Source of the DNA: a virus
Virus record (IMG/VR): IMGVR_UViG_3300017963_000421
Span: 1 to 41,923 of that record
DNA: 41,923 nucleotides
Reading direction: 5' to 3' (one strand)
In this document: piece by piece, positions 3,003 to 41,923 of the stretch
How the letters are laid out: each line of letters starts with the position of its first letter
Numbering within the stretch: the stretch's first letter is position 1
Notes under the pieces: model-generated
Told to the model about the DNA's origin: nothing
What the model saw: the letters and a program-made list of their open reading frames with translations, nothing else
The model's database searches: none
Made by a program: the position numbers and the translations under genes

Positions 3003-3562
3003 TAGTTCTTTCCTTTCTGTTTGGTCAGTTCGTCAATCCACTCGTGGACTAGTTGTAGTTTGGTGTCTTTGTCGAAGTGTCGGGCCCACGCGCAAACTGT
3101 AGTCGGCTCGTCAATCCATTTGCGCATTAGGTTCACTTTGCCTTGCGCAGCTAGGCCGCTGATGATTTCTTCGACGTCGTCTTCGCTTAGGTATTCCTCG
3201 ACAAGTTTTTTGATTTCTTCTTCGCTTAGCCACTCTATAGCGAGTTCTTTTTTCTGCGCCGTAGAAAGACCTTCTTCGCTTAGCCACTCTATAGCGAGTT
3301 CTTTTTTCTGCGCCGTAGAAAGAAAGTCAGCGAGCTCCACGACGTCGCCCTCGTTTTTGACGATGGTCGCGTCGATTTTCTTTGCCCACAAGTCCGTAAA
3401 TTCCGTGATTTGGTGCTCTACCAAGTTCGTGTAGAGCCAATCGACAAGGCCTTCGATGTGCCCGAAAAGGTCGATCGGTTGCTCCATTGCTTTTCTGATA
3501 AGGCGCTTCGCCGTGCTCGTGTCGAGCTGCATTATTTGAACGGGCCTTTTTTCGTCGTTCAT
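3002..3562 (-). CDS. Acidic helical early protein with internal duplication
   Basis: 186 residues from the ATG at 3562 (ATGA overlap with the upstream stop, GAAAGGA upstream); an alternative start lies at 3586. It is rich in Glu/Lys/Trp and predicted helical. The centre carries two perfect copies of an 18-residue unit, STAQKKELAIEWLSEE plus two linker residues, and related motifs (EIKKLVEEYLSED, HEWIDELT, RKWIDE) follow, suggesting the whole C-terminal half grew from a repeated helix. No family recognised. Confidence 0.6.
   Translation of the reverse strand: MNDEKRPVQIMQLDTSTAKRLIRKAMEQPIDLFGHIEGLVDWLYTNLVEHQITEFTDLWAKKIDATIVKNEGDVVELADFLSTAQKKELAIEWLSEEGLSTAQKKELAIEWLSEEEIKKLVEEYLSEDDVEEIISGLAAQGKVNLMRKWIDEPTTVCAWARHFDKDTKLQLVHEWIDELTKQKGKN
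3217..3323 (-). repeat. Perfect 53-bp direct repeat, period 54 bp
   Basis: 3217-3269 and 3271-3323 are identical, separated by one base, giving a period of 54 bp (18 codons) and preserving the frame of the surrounding gene. The absence of any silent change points to a very recent duplication or to ongoing exchange. Confidence 0.95.
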
Positions 3563-13409: not shown

Positions 13410-13464
13410 GCTTCCTCGCTTTCGTCTTCGCTGTTTTTTGCGTCTTCGTTATCGCTTAAGGCAT

Positions 13465-13492
13465 ATTTAAAGCACTTCGGGGGGCGTGTCAA
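13465..13492 (-). promoter_or_regulatory. Sigma70-type promoter for the leftward early operon
   Basis: On the - strand a perfect -35 TTGACA (13492-13487) is followed after 16 bp by TTAAAT (13470-13465, 4 of 6 matches to TATAAT). It lies about 55 bp upstream of the first leftward ATG in the AT-rich 216-bp divergent gap 13410-13625. For rightward transcription the same gap offers only a weak pair, TTGTTG (13588) and TATTAC (13611), 17 bp apart. Confidence 0.55.
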
Positions 13493-13625
13493 CTTAATTT
13501 CAACGCTTTTTTCAACAAAGTTTTAAGCGCCCGTTTTTACTGTCTTTTTACGCCGCCCGAAAATTATTTTTGTTTTCTTCCGATCTTTTGTTGAAATCTT
13601 TTTGAAACGGTATTACAACGGATTC

Positions 13626-13895
13626 ATGGACCACTTAGCGCCCGATATTTTGTTTTTTGCCGGCTCGCCCGTTATGGTGAGCCCGCTTGCTCTTGTGAGG
13701 TCGCATGCGCAAGTCAAAAGACATAGACGAAAACGCATCAATAAAAAATGGCTAAAGCGCTATGGAAGGCGGGAGATCTGGACGCCGGGCGCGATATGGA
13801 ACGGCGCGAATCTCGTAGTTCACCCTTTGGTGTTCGCAGAACTTGAAAAGAGATATGGGGTAAAACATGCCAAGTTTACAATTGCAGAACAGTAG
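13626..13895 (+). CDS. Hypothetical phage protein, first rightward gene
   Basis: 89 residues from the ATG at 13626 (ACGGATTC just upstream); a TTG at 13602 is less likely. The strongly basic stretch VKRHRRKRINKKWLKRYG and the ending with HPLVFAELEKRYG are seen in short phage proteins of unknown role. Nucleic-acid binding is possible from charge alone. It overlaps the regulator-like gene downstream by 29 bp. Confidence 0.5.
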   Translation: MDHLAPDILFFAGSPVMVSPLALVRSHAQVKRHRRKRINKKWLKRYGRREIWTPGAIWNGANLVVHPLVFAELEKRYGVKHAKFTIAEQ

Positions 13896-14043
13896 AGCGC
13901 CCAAGCGGCGAATCGCCGTTATACTCGGTCGAAGTGAGTGGGCGTCAATCGTCAAAGAGTTAAAGCGGCTTCGAAAAGAAGGAGTGATCGAGGCTTCCGT
14001 TTCGCACGTAATCCGGTCGTTAATACGTCAACATCTACATTAA
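13867..14043 (+). CDS. Ribbon-helix-helix-like DNA-binding protein
   Basis: 58 residues starting MPSLQLQNSR; GGGG lies about 7 bp ahead of the ATG, and the TAA is 14 bp before the primase-helicase GTG. The layout is a basic N-terminus (APKRR), a strand (RIAVILGRSEW), helix (ASIVKELKRLRKEG) and a second helix (SVSHVIRSLIRQHL), as in Arc/CopG/MetJ-type repressors. Located at the divergent promoter, it is the best candidate for the transcriptional switch of this phage. The call rests on secondary-structure pattern, not on a database match. Confidence 0.6.
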   Translation: MPSLQLQNSRAPKRRIAVILGRSEWASIVKELKRLRKEGVIEASVSHVIRSLIRQHLH

Positions 14044-14057
14044 ACCAGGGGGCGGCC

Positions 14058-16559
14058 GTGGCTTGGATTACCTTTTTGAACGGGGTTTATGACACGCCCG
14101 ACGGGGCAAAAGTCGCCGAGCTTGACGCCGGCGGCTTCCTCGACTACGTGGGCGACGCGGAGAAGTGGCCGTCGGTAGCTTGCTCGAGCAAACGCGAAAA
14201 GCTCAATGGTTTGGGCTTCGTTTGCGGGCGGTACAAGCCGAGCGCGAAATCGAAGCACAATTCGGAACTCGCGCCAGATTCCGCCACCGATGTTTTTGTC
14301 TATGACATCGATTCGATGACGCGGGCGGAAGTTCGGGCGGCCGCGGTGCGCTGGCGTGAGTATGACTGCGCCGTCTATTCGACTTGGAAGCACACCGAGA
14401 AGGCGCCCCGCTTGCGCTTGCTCGTGCGCTTGTCCAAAGCGGTGCCGAATGTCAGTGATTTGCCTTTCAAGTCGTTGTATGCGGCGGGCGCTCGCTTGCT
14501 TGGCGTTTCTCACGACCCGGTCACTCTAAAGGTCGCGAACTTTTTTCTTGGCCCGCAACACATGCCGGACACGAAAGACCAAGTCGAGCGCCTGCGCTTT
14601 CGGGGCAAGGCTCTTGACGTGGGCGAGCTCGCGAAGATGCCCTACGAGTCGCCGGCGGCCTTGGTGCCGTCAAGGGGGGCGATGGCGCTCTCGGATAGGC
14701 CCGACCGAAAAGAAGTCAAGGCGTTCGCCGAGTGGCTGCTCAAGCGGAAGAATCGGGCGCAGCGCACCGCCGGCGAAGCTTTGAAGGCGGCCGTGAAGGG
14801 CGACGCCTACGGCTCACGCGGAGTCTTGCACGACATCCGGGTCAAGCTCGCCTTCGAGTGCGTCCGGAAATGGCGGGAGATTGACGCGGAGTGGTTCGCC
14901 GAGCAGCACTTGCGGGTCTCGTGGGCGGCCACGGAGCCGGGCGAGTCCAAGTGGGAGTATCGGCTCGGCGATTGGGTCAAGTGCGTCGATTCCGCTCGAG
15001 CGAAGCTGCTCAAAATGGACGCGGAGCGGGAGCGAGTCCGCCCGAGCGCCGCGGCTCCGTTGAATGAAGACCAAATCGCGAACGTCGAAGGCCTACGCGG
15101 GGCGCTCGTGGCGTCTTATGGTTCGTCCTATTACGTCTATTCCCCTTACAAGGCCGCCTATCAGGGGCCCTTCAAGGCGGCGCAAGTGCCGATCGCGTTT
15201 CGCGAGTGTTTGGGGGCAATGCCCGGCGTTTCCGAGCTCGACTTTCGAAACGTCAATGGCCCGCCCGGCTTGAAGTCGGCGGGAAAGTTGAATCACGAGT
15301 ATGGGTGCACGGTCGGCGCCGTCCAGTACTACGCGCGGTGCAATGGCGTGGCCTACGACGGGAAAGAGAACGCTATCCGGCTGCAGGCTTACAAGTGGAT
15401 TGAATGGGAACCCCGCTTCTCGGCGTGTTGCGATGAGCTCTTGCGGGCGATTGGCGGGAGCAAATACGACCTTTTGGAGTCCTACTTGTACAAGTTTCGG
15501 GACCTTGACCAGCCCTTGCCCGCCTTGACCCTGGTAGGCACGCAAGGGGTTTGGAAGTCCCAGATCGCCCAAGCCCTTTCCCGCTTTTGGGGGCATCGCG
15601 ACGCGCCGACACCGTGCCGCCCCGAAAAAGTTCTCTTCAAGTTCGCCGCTCCCCTGCTTCAAAACCCCGTCATATGGTCCGATGAGAAACTCGCTTCCGA
15701 CAGGGGCGAACACGGGATTCCGGAGCGCTACCGCGAGTCGATTTCCGAGCGCGTACATATGGTCGAAATGAAAGGCGTTGACCCCTTGACGCTGTTCTCT
15801 TGCACTCGTCACGTAATAAGCGTCAATGAAGAGGAGAAGGTGTTTTCCGCGGAAGTTGACGCGTCTTCGGTCGAAGCCACAATGATTCGGTTTTTGGTGC
15901 TGCGCATCCGGAAGCGTGTGATTGAACGCTTTGAGGAGAAGTGGGCGGGGACTGAGGAGCTCGAGCGGCTCCGCGAAGGCGCGGGCTTGCTCGAGCACGT
16001 GCGCTGGATTGAAGAGAACACCACGCACGAGAGTCAAGGCCGGTTTTGGGTCAACACCGCGAGCGACCTCGACATGGTTTGGCGGGCTCGCTTCGCCGAT
16101 GAGACCTTGAACTACTGCCTAATGATTGCCCTCGATTGCCTCATGGAAGAATGCAATCACTCCGTGCCCGGGCAAATCGACCGCTTGCCCCTGGTTTGCG
16201 ACTCCGAAGGCCAGCTTCGCATCTCGCCCGACCGAATCAACGCCGCTTGGGGCGAGTCCAATGTCGTGGCGGGCTCCCGAGTCAAAAAACCGGCTCCGAC
16301 TACGATCGGACGCTACTTGACGAAGGCGGGTTTTAAGCTGGATTCGGAAGAAAGAGCGAGTAAAACAAAGTTAAAAGCTTGGAAGATTGACCACGTTACA
16401 TTAAAGCGATTTATCGAAAATACCGATCGCTACACGTGGGAAGACTTAAAAGAAGCCGTTAAAAAAGTCTTTAAAGTTTCGGTAGCCGATACAAGTGGGC
16501 CGTTTGGCCGTTCGCGGGCCGTTACTTTTTCGGCGAACGGCCGTGAAGCAAGTGACTAA
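14058..16559 (+). CDS. Primase-helicase: AEP primase plus SF3-like helicase
   Basis: 833 residues from the GTG at 14058 (GGGGGCGG upstream); the frame is open to 13938, but that part lies over the regulator gene. VFVYDIDSM (D83, D85) followed by APRLRLLVRLS (about 107-118) and FFLGPQHMPD fits the archaeo-eukaryotic primase catalytic core. LVGTQGVWKSQIAQ (Walker A, K500) and NPVIWSDEK (Walker B, D542/E543) fit the VirE/D5-like SF3 helicase ATPase. It should prime and unwind at the origin, with the family A polymerase extending. The 3' end already contains four of the heptamers that fill the next intergenic region. Confidence 0.85.
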   Translation: MAWITFLNGVYDTPDGAKVAELDAGGFLDYVGDAEKWPSVACSSKREKLNGLGFVCGRYKPSAKSKHNSELAPDSATDVFVYDIDSMTRAEVRAAAVRWREYDCAVYSTWKHTEKAPRLRLLVRLSKAVPNVSDLPFKSLYAAGARLLGVSHDPVTLKVANFFLGPQHMPDTKDQVERLRFRGKALDVGELAKMPYESPAALVPSRGAMALSDRPDRKEVKAFAEWLLKRKNRAQRTAGEALKAAVKGDAYGSRGVLHDIRVKLAFECVRKWREIDAEWFAEQHLRVSWAATEPGESKWEYRLGDWVKCVDSARAKLLKMDAERERVRPSAAAPLNEDQIANVEGLRGALVASYGSSYYVYSPYKAAYQGPFKAAQVPIAFRECLGAMPGVSELDFRNVNGPPGLKSAGKLNHEYGCTVGAVQYYARCNGVAYDGKENAIRLQAYKWIEWEPRFSACCDELLRAIGGSKYDLLESYLYKFRDLDQPLPALTLVGTQGVWKSQIAQALSRFWGHRDAPTPCRPEKVLFKFAAPLLQNPVIWSDEKLASDRGEHGIPERYRESISERVHMVEMKGVDPLTLFSCTRHVISVNEEEKVFSAEVDASSVEATMIRFLVLRIRKRVIERFEEKWAGTEELERLREGAGLLEHVRWIEENTTHESQGRFWVNTASDLDMVWRARFADETLNYCLMIALDCLMEECNHSVPGQIDRLPLVCDSEGQLRISPDRINAAWGESNVVAGSRVKKPAPTTIGRYLTKAGFKLDSEERASKTKLKAWKIDHVTLKRFIENTDRYTWEDLKEAVKKVFKVSVADTSGPFGRSRAVTFSANGREASD

Positions 16560-16785
16560 AATGACGCGTCTTTTTTGCCGAAAAGGCCGTTTGGCCGTTC
16601 ATTTACGCTATTTAGTAGGGCTGGGAAGTAGAATGTATGTAGTGGTAGGATATAGTAGGATATTTATATCGTGTTTTTTATGGCGAAATAGGGATTTAAA
16701 CGGCCCGAACGGCCCGACGGGCCGTAAGTGCGCGGAACTACTAAACTTGTTTAGGGCCGTTCATTTTTTCGCTAAACGGCCGTTT
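16498..16785. repeat. Cluster of GGCCGTT/AACGGCC heptamers (iteron-like)
   Basis: GGCCGTT at 16498, 16506, 16517, 16585, 16593 and 16755; AACGGCC at 16536, 16699 and 16708; the palindrome AAACGGCCGTTT at 16774-16785; a near copy GGCCGTA at 16720. The 16-mer GGCCGTTTGGCCGTTC occurs identically at 16498 and 16585. CGGCCCGACGGGCCG (16710-16724) forms a 7-bp inverted repeat round one base. Such density in both orientations looks like multiple binding sites for one protein. Confidence 0.8.
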
Positions 16786-16887
16786 TACAGGTATACACGT
16801 AAAATTCCAGGCGCGTTAAAAACGGCGATCTGAAAAGTAGGTGTTTGTGCGACATGTAGGAGCGAAAAACGGAGAAAGGGGCGCTTT
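16560..16887. other. Non-coding region, candidate replication origin
   Basis: This 328-bp gap follows the primase-helicase gene. It combines heptamer sites at its left and right parts with an AT-rich middle (about 16600-16700) that contains the direct repeat TAGTAGGATAT-like sequence (GGTAGGATATAGTAGGATAT). Iterons flanking an easily melted stretch beside the initiator/helicase gene is the common plan of small-replicon origins. The one long frame across it (16495-16833) has no ribosome site and unnatural composition, so I treat the region as non-coding. Confidence 0.5.
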
Positions 16888-17226: not shown

Positions 17227-17429
17227 CCAAGCGAACGATAAAACCAAAAGAAACGCTCTTTCAACGCCACAAGCGCGCGCAAGACGTCGCGGTCGGTATC
17301 GAAGCCGCGAAGCGCGCGGCGCTCCCGCTCCTGATAAAGAACACGCTGCGCAAGACTTTCTTGACCGGGATATTGACGGGAATGCTCCTCTTGCTCGTTG
17401 TCGAGTGGCTCGCGGAGTGGGTCCGATGA
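17223..17429 (+). CDS. Single-span membrane protein
   Basis: 68 residues. The first 40 are basic (KRTIKPKETLFQRHKRAQ), then one hydrophobic helix at about 46-66 (TFLTGILTGMLLLLVVEWLA). N-in/C-out topology is expected from the charge bias. Coupled by ATGA overlaps to its neighbours on both sides. Position just before the terminase genes; a lysis or membrane-associated role is possible, but nothing identifies it. Confidence 0.5.
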   Translation: MTKRTIKPKETLFQRHKRAQDVAVGIEAAKRAALPLLIKNTLRKTFLTGILTGMLLLLVVEWLAEWVR

Positions 17430-18056: not shown

Positions 18057-19558
18057 GTGAACCTTTTATCAGTCAAGAGCAAGTGAGCGAGCTTCTTAGC
18101 ATGGCGAGTCTCGCCACTATCGAACACGAGCTCGCGAACCGAGGTTTGCGCCACTATATCAAGGCCGCATGGGATGAAGTCGAGCCGAGCAGCATTTACG
18201 TTTCAAACTGGCATATTGATGCGATTTGCGAGCATTTGGAAGCCGTGCTCGACGGCGAAATAAGGCGCCTTGTCATTAACGTTCCGCCCGGCACAATGAA
18301 ATCGTTGACGTGTTCGGTGTTCTTTCCTACGTGGGCGTGGACGCAGGAGCCACAAACGCGCTTTATTTACGCTTGCTACAATGACCAGCTTTCGCGAAGG
18401 GATAGTCGGAAATGCCGGCGTCTCATCGGGTCAGACTGGTATCAAGAGAGATGGGGCTACCGATACCGGATACTTGACACGAGGCGAGACAAGGCCGAAG
18501 ACTCATCGAGAATCTTTCACACGAACGAGGGCGGCTTCCGTCTCATCACTTCAATCAAGGGCGGGGTCACTGGCGAGCACGCCCATATCCAAGTGGTAGA
18601 CGACCCATTGAAGCCGCTCGAAGTCACGGGCTCGCTGGCTATATCAAAGACCGCACTCGAGCGCGTTTTGACTTGGTGGAATGACACAATGGCCACTCGT
18701 ATGGTGTCCGCGCAGCAATCCGCGCGAATCATCATTATGCAACGGCTTCACATGGGCGACCTCGCGGGCGAGATGCTGCGCGCGGGCGGTTATGAGCATC
18801 TTTGCTTACCAATGGAGTATGAGCCCAAGCGCAAGTGCATGACGTGCCTTGGCGAGCCGGACCCGAGAACGGAAGCGGGCGAACTGCTTGACCCCGTGCG
18901 CTATCCACGCGAAGCCGTTGACCAGTTGAAAGAGGAGCTCGGGCCAAGGGGCACGGCGGCGCAGTTGCAACAAGACCCGACACCGGCAAGCGGGAACCTT
19001 TTCAAGCGTGAGAAGTTCAAGCACTACACGAAGCGTCCGCCGTGCACGCAAATGATTCAATCTTGGGACTGTACTTTTAAAGACCTAGATACAAGCGACT
19101 TCGTCGTCGGGCAAGTATGGGGCATCTATGAGGGCGATTACTACTTTTTAGCGCAAACGCGCGGCCGTTTGAACGTTAGCGCAACGTGTCGCGCTATTGA
19201 GAAGATGACCAAGCGCTATCCGAAAGCGGTAAGCAAGCTCGTGGAAGACAAGGCGAACGGGCCCGCGGTCGTGGCGCTCCTAAAGAAGAAGATACCGGGG
19301 CTAAAGCTAGTGAACCCGCAAGGCGGGAAAGAGGCGCGGGCGAACGCTGTCGAGCCCTTGTTCGATGCCGGTAACGTGTATTTGCCCGACCCGAGCATCG
19401 CGCCATGGATTAAAGAGTATGAGGAAGAAATGGTCGCTTTCCCGTCCGGTCTCAACGATGACCAAGTCGACGCGACTACGCAGGCACTAAACGAACTCTA
19501 TAGAAAGAGCATTGACAGACTAAAAGCCGCGATGGCGGCCGCAAGGGGTGGAAGATGA
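18053..19558 (+). CDS. terL: Terminase large subunit
   Basis: 501 residues. ATPase: VPPGTMKS (77-84) is the Walker A and HIQVVDDP (178-185) the Walker B with the catalytic acid. Nuclease: SWDCTFKD (D339), VEDKANG and DDQVDATTQ near 470 provide the RNase H-fold metal ligands. Length is normal for the family. It translocates DNA into the prohead and cuts the concatemer. An insert with cysteines (KCMTCLGEPD, about 261-270) lies between the domains. Headful versus cos packaging cannot be decided from sequence alone. Confidence 0.95.
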   Translation: MSEPFISQEQVSELLSMASLATIEHELANRGLRHYIKAAWDEVEPSSIYVSNWHIDAICEHLEAVLDGEIRRLVINVPPGTMKSLTCSVFFPTWAWTQEPQTRFIYACYNDQLSRRDSRKCRRLIGSDWYQERWGYRYRILDTRRDKAEDSSRIFHTNEGGFRLITSIKGGVTGEHAHIQVVDDPLKPLEVTGSLAISKTALERVLTWWNDTMATRMVSAQQSARIIIMQRLHMGDLAGEMLRAGGYEHLCLPMEYEPKRKCMTCLGEPDPRTEAGELLDPVRYPREAVDQLKEELGPRGTAAQLQQDPTPASGNLFKREKFKHYTKRPPCTQMIQSWDCTFKDLDTSDFVVGQVWGIYEGDYYFLAQTRGRLNVSATCRAIEKMTKRYPKAVSKLVEDKANGPAVVALLKKKIPGLKLVNPQGGKEARANAVEPLFDAGNVYLPDPSIAPWIKEYEEEMVAFPSGLNDDQVDATTQALNELYRKSIDRLKAAMAAARGGR

Positions 19559-38992: not shown

Positions 38993-41923
38993 GTGACCGC
39001 GGCATCTATCACGAAGGAGAGCGCAGCGCGCTACAACGTCGACTTTAACAAGCACTGCAAAGTCGAAATAGGCGACGCTGCGCTCGCTTTCTTCTCTCCA
39101 AAAGTCAAGTTTAAAAAGTGGGGCGACGAATGTTGGATTTCGCTTTCGCCTCAAAAAGCGTACACCCAAAAAACGCCCGCGGAGCTCGGCGACAGCAAAA
39201 TCGACAAAGTGGTCGTCGACTCCGACGACGCGAAAGAAGCGCACCACTTATACCCATTAGACGAAAGCGAAAACCACGAGCAAGAAGAGGGGCTTTTCGA
39301 GCTCGAAGCGGTCGTCTATGAAAAACCGCTTTCGGGCGGTTTCACTTACGCTTGGAATCTCGAGCACAGTGACAACCTAGCGTTCTTCAAACAAGATATT
39401 TTGAACGCGCCTCTTATAGGCTCGGTGGCGAGTCGTGACGAGTTCGGGGGTTATGACGCCAAAGGCAAGCAAGTCGAATTTTGGGCGCCCGAAGCTCTCA
39501 ACTCATATGCCATCTATCGCAAAGATTTGCCCGCGGTAATGTCAGAAGCCGACGGCGCGAAGTACAAATCGGGGTGCGTGGGTCGCCTGCGCCGCCCGAA
39601 GGTAATCGACGCCAAGGGCGCTTGGGAGTGGGCAGATCTGGACGTCGACACGGAAAAGAAAACTGTTACCGTGACGGGGTCTGCAGAGTTCGCAAAAAGA
39701 GCGGTTTTACCCGTGCGCATCGACCCCACTTTCGGCTACACGACGGCGGGCTCGTTCTCCACGTTCGGCGATGATCGTATTCAAGGCACTTACGCCCGCC
39801 CTGCGTCGCCGGGGCGCGGTATCGTCACGAGTCTTCACGCCTACATCGGTAGTTGGTCAAGCGGCGACAAAGTGAAAATGGCGCTCGTCACGGGAGCCGA
39901 CAACAATCTCAAAGCGCCATCTACCGCCGAGCGTTCCGACGGGCACTCGGGCGCGCAGTGGGCAACCTTCACTTTTTCGGACCCCAAACCCGCGCTACAG
40001 TATCTCTACTATACGAACGTGATTTGGAGCGACAGCGTCATCGACGTCTATTATGACTTTGGTTCGTTCGGCGATTCGCGCGACGTGAGTCTCACTTATG
40101 GCGATTGGCCAAGGCAACTTAGCTTGTCAGATTCGCCTTGGCTCGTGTCGACGTATGCGACCTTTGAAACGTCTACGATCGAGAAAGTGCGGAATGTTGA
40201 TTGGGCGTATGCCTACCACTTTCCGGGCGCGAAAAATATAAAGGTCGACGGCTCTTTCGGGGCGACCCAAGGCGACGCGTGGGTCAAGATAGGCGACGCC
40301 GATCAATGGTCTTCCGTGGTCACTTCCGACACGTGCACGATCAATTCGTGGAGCGCTTCCCAAATTGACATCACAATACCCAAGAGCCTTGCCAACACTC
40401 TCGGGAATCTTTGGCTCTACGTGAAGCCGAACGGCGGGTCGGCGAACGCTTACGGGTTCCCCGTCGTCATCAAAAAGGAGTGGGGCCAGCGCTATCCGGA
40501 CGCGGAATCTACTACAGTGAATTGGTGTCGCGCCATGGGGGGCACGTCGCCCGATGTCGACAACATGACACTAGAAAGCGTGAGCGTCTATTGTGGCACG
40601 AGCCATGGCGCGCAAGTGCGCGTCGCCGTCTACCAAGGCGGCACGCTGACTGACCCGACCGGGGCGTCTTTAGTGGAAGACTTCGGGGTGACAGCCGGAA
40701 GCGACACGGAAGCTTGGCAAACGCTTCTAAGCTCGTCAAATCCGTCGCTTACAAAAAACGCGGTCACGTGGATTGTCGTAAAGGGCAATGACAGCTCTTT
40801 TGGCGTGGCCTTTTCGGGCGACTCGGGCGGCGGCGACTTCCAAACCGCACGCGGGCGTTATCAGTCGTCGAGCATGAATAGCATAGAAAGCTCAGTTTTT
40901 CCCGCTAACTGGCCGACGGACTCCGGAAGCTTCGCCGATTTTTGGTATAGCTTCCGCTTGGCCTATTCTACGCCGCCGTTGTCCGCATTGCAGGGGCAAA
41001 TAGACGCAAAAAGTGTTGTCGCGGGCTCCCTGTCCGCCACCACTTCCCTGCAGGGGCAAATAGACGCGACAAGCGTCTTTACAGGCGCCCTGTCCGCTAC
41101 CGTGCCCATGTTTGGCCAGATCAACGGGCAAAGCGCGATTACGGGCGCCATTACCGAAGTTAGAGCTCTGCAGGGTCAGATCGCAGGGCAAAGCGCCCTT
41201 ACCGGCTCGCTGCTAAAAGCGATAGACCTATCGGGGCAAATAGACGCGGTAAGCGCCCTTACAGGCTCGTTGTTCAACTCGGTGCCAATCTCGGGACAAA
41301 TCGATGCGGCAAGCGCCCTTACCGGCTCGCTGCTCAAGTTGAAACAGATTTCGGGGCAAATAGACGCACAAAGCGATCTATGGGGTTGTTTGTGCTCCGC
41401 TGCAGCTCTGCAGGGACACGTTGACGCGCGAAGCATCGTTGCGGGCTCCCTATCCGCCACCGTTTTCCTGCAGGGGCAAATAGACGCACAAAGCACCATA
41501 GAAGGCCTTTTGCTCAAGCCCGTGTTTCTTTCGGGGCAAATAGACGCGGATAGCGCCCTTACGGGCGCCGTGACGGTCGCTGCAGGCCTGCAGGGGCAAA
41601 TAGACGCGGTAAGCGCCCTTGCGGGCTCCCTGTCCGCCGTGGTTCCCCTGCAGGGGCAAATAGACGCGGTAAGCGCCCTTGCCGGCTCGCTGCTCAAGCT
41701 GATTGGCATTCGGGGGCAAATAGACGCGGCAAGCGCCCTTGCGGGCTCCCTGTCCGCCGTGGTTCCCCTGCAGGGGCAAATAGACGCGGCAAGCGCCCTT
41801 GCGGGCTCCCTGTCCGCCGTGGTTCCCCTGCAGGGGCAAATAGACGCGGTAAGCGCCCTTGCGGGCTCCCTGTCCGCCGTGGTTCCCCTGCAGGGGCAAA
41901 TAGACGCGGTAAGCGCCCTTGCC
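38993..41923 (+). CDS. Repeat-bearing tail fibre/adhesin, N-terminal and central part
   Basis: GTG start at 38993, nine bases after the previous stop; open to the window end and continuing at 1-514, total about 1,108 residues. Residues 1-260 match a domain common at the start of phage structural proteins, ending RAVLPVRIDPTFGYTTAG. A beta sandwich follows (260-400), then an IPT/TIG-like immunoglobulin domain at about 410-495 (NIKVDGSFGATQGDAWVKIG), a second sandwich (510-655) and from 40981 onward about twenty 20-residue repeats built on LQGQIDAxSALxGSL. Expected to be trimeric and surface exposed. Ligand unknown. Confidence 0.82.
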   Translation, partial: MTAASITKESAARYNVDFNKHCKVEIGDAALAFFSPKVKFKKWGDECWISLSPQKAYTQKTPAELGDSKIDKVVVDSDDAKEAHHLYPLDESENHEQEEGLFELEAVVYEKPLSGGFTYAWNLEHSDNLAFFKQDILNAPLIGSVASRDEFGGYDAKGKQVEFWAPEALNSYAIYRKDLPAVMSEADGAKYKSGCVGRLRRPKVIDAKGAWEWADLDVDTEKKTVTVTGSAEFAKRAVLPVRIDPTFGYTTAGSFSTFGDDRIQGTYARPASPGRGIVTSLHAYIGSWSSGDKVKMALVTGADNNLKAPSTAERSDGHSGAQWATFTFSDPKPALQYLYYTNVIWSDSVIDVYYDFGSFGDSRDVSLTYGDWPRQLSLSDSPWLVSTYATFETSTIEKVRNVDWAYAYHFPGAKNIKVDGSFGATQGDAWVKIGDADQWSSVVTSDTCTINSWSASQIDITIPKSLANTLGNLWLYVKPNGGSANAYGFPVVIKKEWGQRYPDAESTTVNWCRAMGGTSPDVDNMTLESVSVYCGTSHGAQVRVAVYQGGTLTDPTGASLVEDFGVTAGSDTEAWQTLLSSSNPSLTKNAVTWIVVKGNDSSFGVAFSGDSGGGDFQTARGRYQSSSMNSIESSVFPANWPTDSGSFADFWYSFRLAYSTPPLSALQGQIDAKSVVAGSLSATTSLQGQIDATSVFTGALSATVPMFGQINGQSAITGAITEVRALQGQIAGQSALTGSLLKAIDLSGQIDAVSALTGSLFNSVPISGQIDAASALTGSLLKLKQISGQIDAQSDLWGCLCSAAALQGHVDARSIVAGSLSATVFLQGQIDAQSTIEGLLLKPVFLSGQIDADSALTGAVTVAAGLQGQIDAVSALAGSLSAVVPLQGQIDAVSALAGSLLKLIGIRGQIDAASALAGSLSAVVPLQGQIDAASALAGSLSAVVPLQGQIDAVSALAGSLSAVVPLQGQIDAVSALA
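40981..41923 (+). repeat. 60-bp in-frame tandem repeat array
   Basis: Fifteen full units and part of a sixteenth, each exactly 60 bp (starts at 40981, 41041 ... 41881). Units before about 41560 have drifted; from 41581 most are nearly identical. Core CAGGGGCAAATAGACGCGG is present in most. The palindrome CCCCTGCAGGGG is perfect at 41645, 41765, 41825 and 41885. Together with the copies at 1-375 there are about 20 units in the circular molecule. Confidence 0.95.

Follow-up and report, generated by a model that had tools for sequence, protein, structure and literature searches.

The analysed window, a stretch of 41,923 nucleotides from the IMG/VR record IMGVR_UViG_3300017963_000421, represented one phage genome. 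A sister contig, G001 (42,432 bp), contained the same DNA from another starting position, and an overlap of 144 bp between its ends supported a circular map. The contig ends of the window (40990-41923 and 1-420) were located inside a coding 60-bp tandem repeat (20 aa, ..LQGQIDAxSALxGSL..), and one ORF with this repeat crossed the circular junction from 38969 to 514. A marker word of the repeat was present in 22 copies in G001 versus 14 in the window, so the 118-bp end overlap of the window appears to be a collapsed repeat. At 3217-3323, apparently within a gene, a 54-bp unit was present as two exact tandem copies. The early genes encoded a family-A DNA polymerase, an SF2 helicase, a PD-(D/E)XK exonuclease, a methyltransferase and a possible Holliday junction resolvase. 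The early proteins that were scanned included no recognisable second primase or initiator. The two gene arms are separated by a divergent region (13410-13866), likely the early promoter region, in which the 60-mer with the highest AT content of the genome is located (13560).

The features of the locus are listed in Table 1. The repeats followed and partly overlapped a gene whose product was assigned, on weak sequence similarity, as a putative SF3/DUF5906-type primase-helicase. Its PHROG primase/helicase matches covered residues 84-207, near the N-terminus (7e-8 and 1.6e-6), and the helicase segment matched DUF5906 weakly, with 9.5e-5 and below the gathering score. In an alignment of 12 proteins, comprising that of the window and 11 DUF5906 proteins, it retained all invariant columns (8/8), including the P-loop lysine. 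Coding scores identified 13938-14057 as non-coding, and the true start may be the GTG at 14058 instead of 13938. The annotated start was overlapped by a 58-aa ORF (13867-14043), which appeared ribbon-helix-helix-like by eye and had no Pfam or PHROG match. The final 26 codons of the primase gene, which carry repeats, also had a negative coding score. AlphaFold models of the whole protein and of its last 159 residues were of low confidence (pLDDT 36 and 44). Besides the sister contig, no close relatives of the primase were present in the viral and genome collections searched. Downstream of the repeats, the gene order was a 112-aa ORF, a 68-aa ORF, TerS (start at 17405) and TerL.

Table 1. Coordinates of the features at the primase-helicase locus of the window.
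Feature	Position	Strand	Details
Primase-helicase gene, proposed initiator	13938..16559	+	873-codon ORF; PHROG, DUF5906 and alignment evidence
Left iteron group, 3' end of primase gene	16498..16542	both	GGCCGTT at 16498+, 16506+, 16517+, 16536-
Tandem iteron pair	16585..16599	+	16585+, 16593+; 8-bp pitch; sequence identical to the pair at 16498
AT-rich stretch, proposed unwinding element	16601..16698		34% GC
Right iteron group	16699..16784		16699-, 16708-, degenerate 16720+, 16755+, 16775-, 16778+
Palindrome formed by heptamers 16775- and 16778+	16774..16785		perfect, 12 bp, AAACGGCCGTTT
Primase-to-next-gene gap	16560..16887		328 bp; spanning ORF 16495-16833 scores non-coding

The heptamer GGCCGTT/AACGGCC occurred 13 times in the whole window. 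Eleven copies, seven on the plus and four on the minus strand, were located within 287 bp (16498-16784), giving an exact count to the 'eleven or so' in 290 bp of the first-pass annotation. The remaining two were found at 19163 and 29224. With one mismatch tolerated, 14 heptamer sites were counted. The binomial probability of at least 11 of 13 heptamers falling into the cluster span was ~1e-22, and the maximum in 200 simulated Markov genomes was three heptamers per 300 bp. No other 7-mer of the circularised genome was equally dense in clustering; the second-densest cluster was that of the 60-bp coding repeat in which the contig ends lie. The heptamer was far rarer outside the cluster, so that an equal frequency elsewhere, which the first-pass annotation had named as counter-evidence, did not apply. 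The exact sites formed a left group of six, including the tandem pair, and a right group of five, on both sides of the 98-bp AT-rich stretch. Counted from the primase stop codon, they spanned -61 to +225, with tandem spacings of 8, 11, 8 and 9 bp. An AT content as high as that of the central stretch (66%) was reached by only 0.06% of 98-bp segments. The cluster region was identical in the window and G001.

Several details of the first-pass annotation were confirmed, namely the flanked AT-rich stretch, the perfect 12-bp palindrome and the identical 16-mer pair (16498-16513 and 16585-16600). Its 15-bp inverted repeat (16581-16595 and 16771-16785) was present but imperfect, with 87% complementarity. 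Most sites were indeed in the gap beside the primase gene, but the first four precede the primase stop at 16559, and the cluster is therefore not wholly intergenic. Describing this gap as the only large one in the genome was too strong, as the divergent region at ~13410-13866 is comparable if the TTG ORF at 13602, which scores as weakly coding, is not a genuine gene. The proposed GC-skew check gave a cumulative minimum at ~11-12 kb and not at the cluster. This minimum follows gene orientation, which makes the skew uninformative as an origin test. A hidden gene across the gap (ORF 16495-16833) was ruled out by its negative coding score, and an RNA feature was rejected based on the absence of an Rfam match. 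The 16-mer was discarded as a searchable family mark: it was found in 10 viral contigs with a single match each, save for the sister contig, and these had no DNA in common with the window.

Distant primase relatives from phages and plasmids were used for comparison. In 1 kb around the 3' end of each DUF5906 gene, the most repeated 7-mer per 300 bp was counted on both strands and compared with Markov shuffles. A cluster was called when its count was unmatched by any shuffle (0/200 in one set, 0/100 in another). Of the 26 loci that could be tested, 12 (8/11 plasmids and 4/15 phages) had a cluster of a different short word 3' of the DUF5906 gene; the other 14 showed no such cluster at this position. 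The plasmids were from Vibrio vulnificus, Roseomonas, Citrobacter, Proteus, Klebsiella (two) and E. coli (two), and the phages were MJing1, PCA1, Chi and Mcat5. The words were CCTGACC, TGGAAAA, CCCTGGA, ACCAAGT, GGTTACA, AATCCCA, CTGTCTC, AGGTTCC, GTTACAA and CCTGCAC. Because a few loci have a common word, the clusters are not all independent. Most clustered loci held the word in both orientations, with a single orientation in Klebsiella L111. The DNA between the groups was AT-rich, with 60-bp minima of 12-38% GC in the ten loci measured, including the window. A tandem pitch of 9 bp accounted for 17 of the 35 spacings of up to 14 bp. Locus L125 was too short for the test, and MSW-3 (L130) was left out due to a 15-bp repeat period inside another gene. 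Several other clusters were rejected as coding or low-complexity repeats: those preceding the primase in L115 and L117, those in L026 and L130, and one at the contig start of L022. Further scans using the relatives as queries added little.

In P4, the two best clusters of the scan coincided with annotated type 1 repeats, one set being at crr, directly beyond the alpha 3' end, and the other at ori. The known origin of Streptococcus phage Sfi21 scored weakly by 7-mers, with four copies equalled by 6 of 100 shuffles, and the scan thus misses degenerate iterons. For a negative control, the 2.5 kb upstream of TerL were scanned in 43 relatives of the large terminase, and no 7-mer reached six copies in any of them. 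This control bears on a role of the cluster in packaging, in which TerS would bind the repeats and the site of the first DNA cut would be defined by them, as at the P1 pac site. In the window, the TerS and TerL genes are located ~0.6-1.3 kb downstream of the cluster. However, a repeat cluster of at least six copies accompanied the terminase genes in none of the 43 relatives, and the layout accompanied the primase in small plasmids without an annotated terminase in the stretch (e.g. L107, L108 and L111). A packaging site is accordingly considered very improbable. Other repeats were noted in viral contigs with related TerL. One contig of 44-46 kb held eight AAGCCTT in an ORF upstream (L044:4258-4530), recalling the origin in the lambda O gene. 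In another viral group, GGTAACT was arranged at 8-/9-bp pitch in a divergent intergenic region (L060:6092-6203, also L051, L063 and L079), which is possibly another iteron origin.

Operators or terminators controlling readthrough from the primase gene into the packaging and structural genes would be a further function for the array. Two terminator-like hairpins were predicted versus 0.8 expected (sd 1.0), and the RNA folding of the region was better than that of shuffles (z -2.65), but such folding is produced by inverted iterons alone. A search of the region gave no promoter-like site, and regulation would account neither for the width of the AT-rich centre nor for the regularity of the pitch, so that we attach very little weight to this function. 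The product of the small ORF at 13867, which the first-pass annotation had offered as an alternative binder, is an unlikely ligand of the repeats judging from its sequence, and a partition or operator site bound by it is the most improbable explanation: the placement of a short gene directly before that of a primase-helicase recalls the orf56/orf904 operon of pRN1 (PMC4234260), but the ORF lacks a Pfam or PHROG family, has a negative coding score and shows no heptamer near its start.

The best-supported reading is that of a phage replication origin, with the adjoining primase-helicase as putative initiator that would bind the iterons and melt the AT-rich centre. We estimate its probability at roughly 85%, from the concentration of heptamers around AT-rich DNA in the window and by analogy with the clusters beside the primase genes of some relatives, with P4 crr and with the Sfi21 origin. 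The steps of initiation are modelled on these known systems. The primase-helicase would bind the GGCCGTT iterons on both sides, probably via its C-terminal part, and its SF3 helicase core would assemble on the AT-rich stretch between the groups and melt it. The primase part would make primers, to be extended by the phage's own family-A DNA polymerase. This provides a concrete candidate origin and initiator for an uncultured phage without close relatives in the collections searched.

In phage-inducible chromosomal islands (PICIs), the origin directly follows the 3' end of the gene for replication initiation, with two iteron sets always flanking an AT-rich region, and a pri-ori segment was shown to support plasmid maintenance (PMC6092414). 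The PICI pri-rep-ori arrangement thus resembles the window in the position directly 3' of the primase/initiator and in the two sets of short iterons around AT-rich DNA (PMC6092414). The PICI iteron sequence differs from GGCCGTT and, unlike the satellite PICI, the window is a genome of ~42 kb that itself encodes a terminase, a head maturation protease and a family-A polymerase. P4 shares the short repeats, which are 8 bp long, occur in both orientations and are spaced 9-10 bp apart, as well as the position of crr just past the alpha 3' end. In contrast to the one cluster of the window, P4 requires two separate elements, crr being composed of two 120-bp direct repeats, and its iteron, GGTGAACA, is unlike that of the window. 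In the archaeal plasmid pRN1, a non-coding stretch downstream of the primase-helicase gene is required and was suggested as the origin, but it forms a 100-nt stem-loop in place of an iteron cluster; the same authors report that phage BIP-1 has a comparable stem-loop, located 3' of its replication protein (PMC4234260).

Two further phages were compared with the window. In the tailed phage Sfi21, the annotated 302-bp origin starts in the last codons of a putative primase and has 11 copies of GTTAC/GTAAC, which surround DNA with an AT content of up to 93%. The element was described as an independent replication origin (PMC6356513). Like the candidate origin of the window, it extends into the 3' end of a putative primase gene and has short inverted repeats on both sides of AT-rich DNA, whereas the repeat core is GTTAC and the putative primase is shorter, with 382 residues as annotated. 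Microcystis phage MJing1 carries inverted CCTGACC groups around AT-rich DNA right after the primase, followed by TerS and TerL. Its iteron sequence is another one, and its DUF5906 protein is a distant relative with weak protein similarity (tblastn E 0.02). Tentatively, and with slightly less than even confidence, the PICI-type origin, reported as peculiar to PICI satellites, may represent a portable cassette of initiator and iterons that occurs in free-living tailed phages as well as in satellites and small cryptic plasmids. The pitch of ~9 bp and the AT-rich centre of such a cassette would be constant, and its iteron word would vary along with the protein. The design itself has known precedents in phage satellites, P4 and phage Sfi21, and the window would add a further example from a phage without close relatives.
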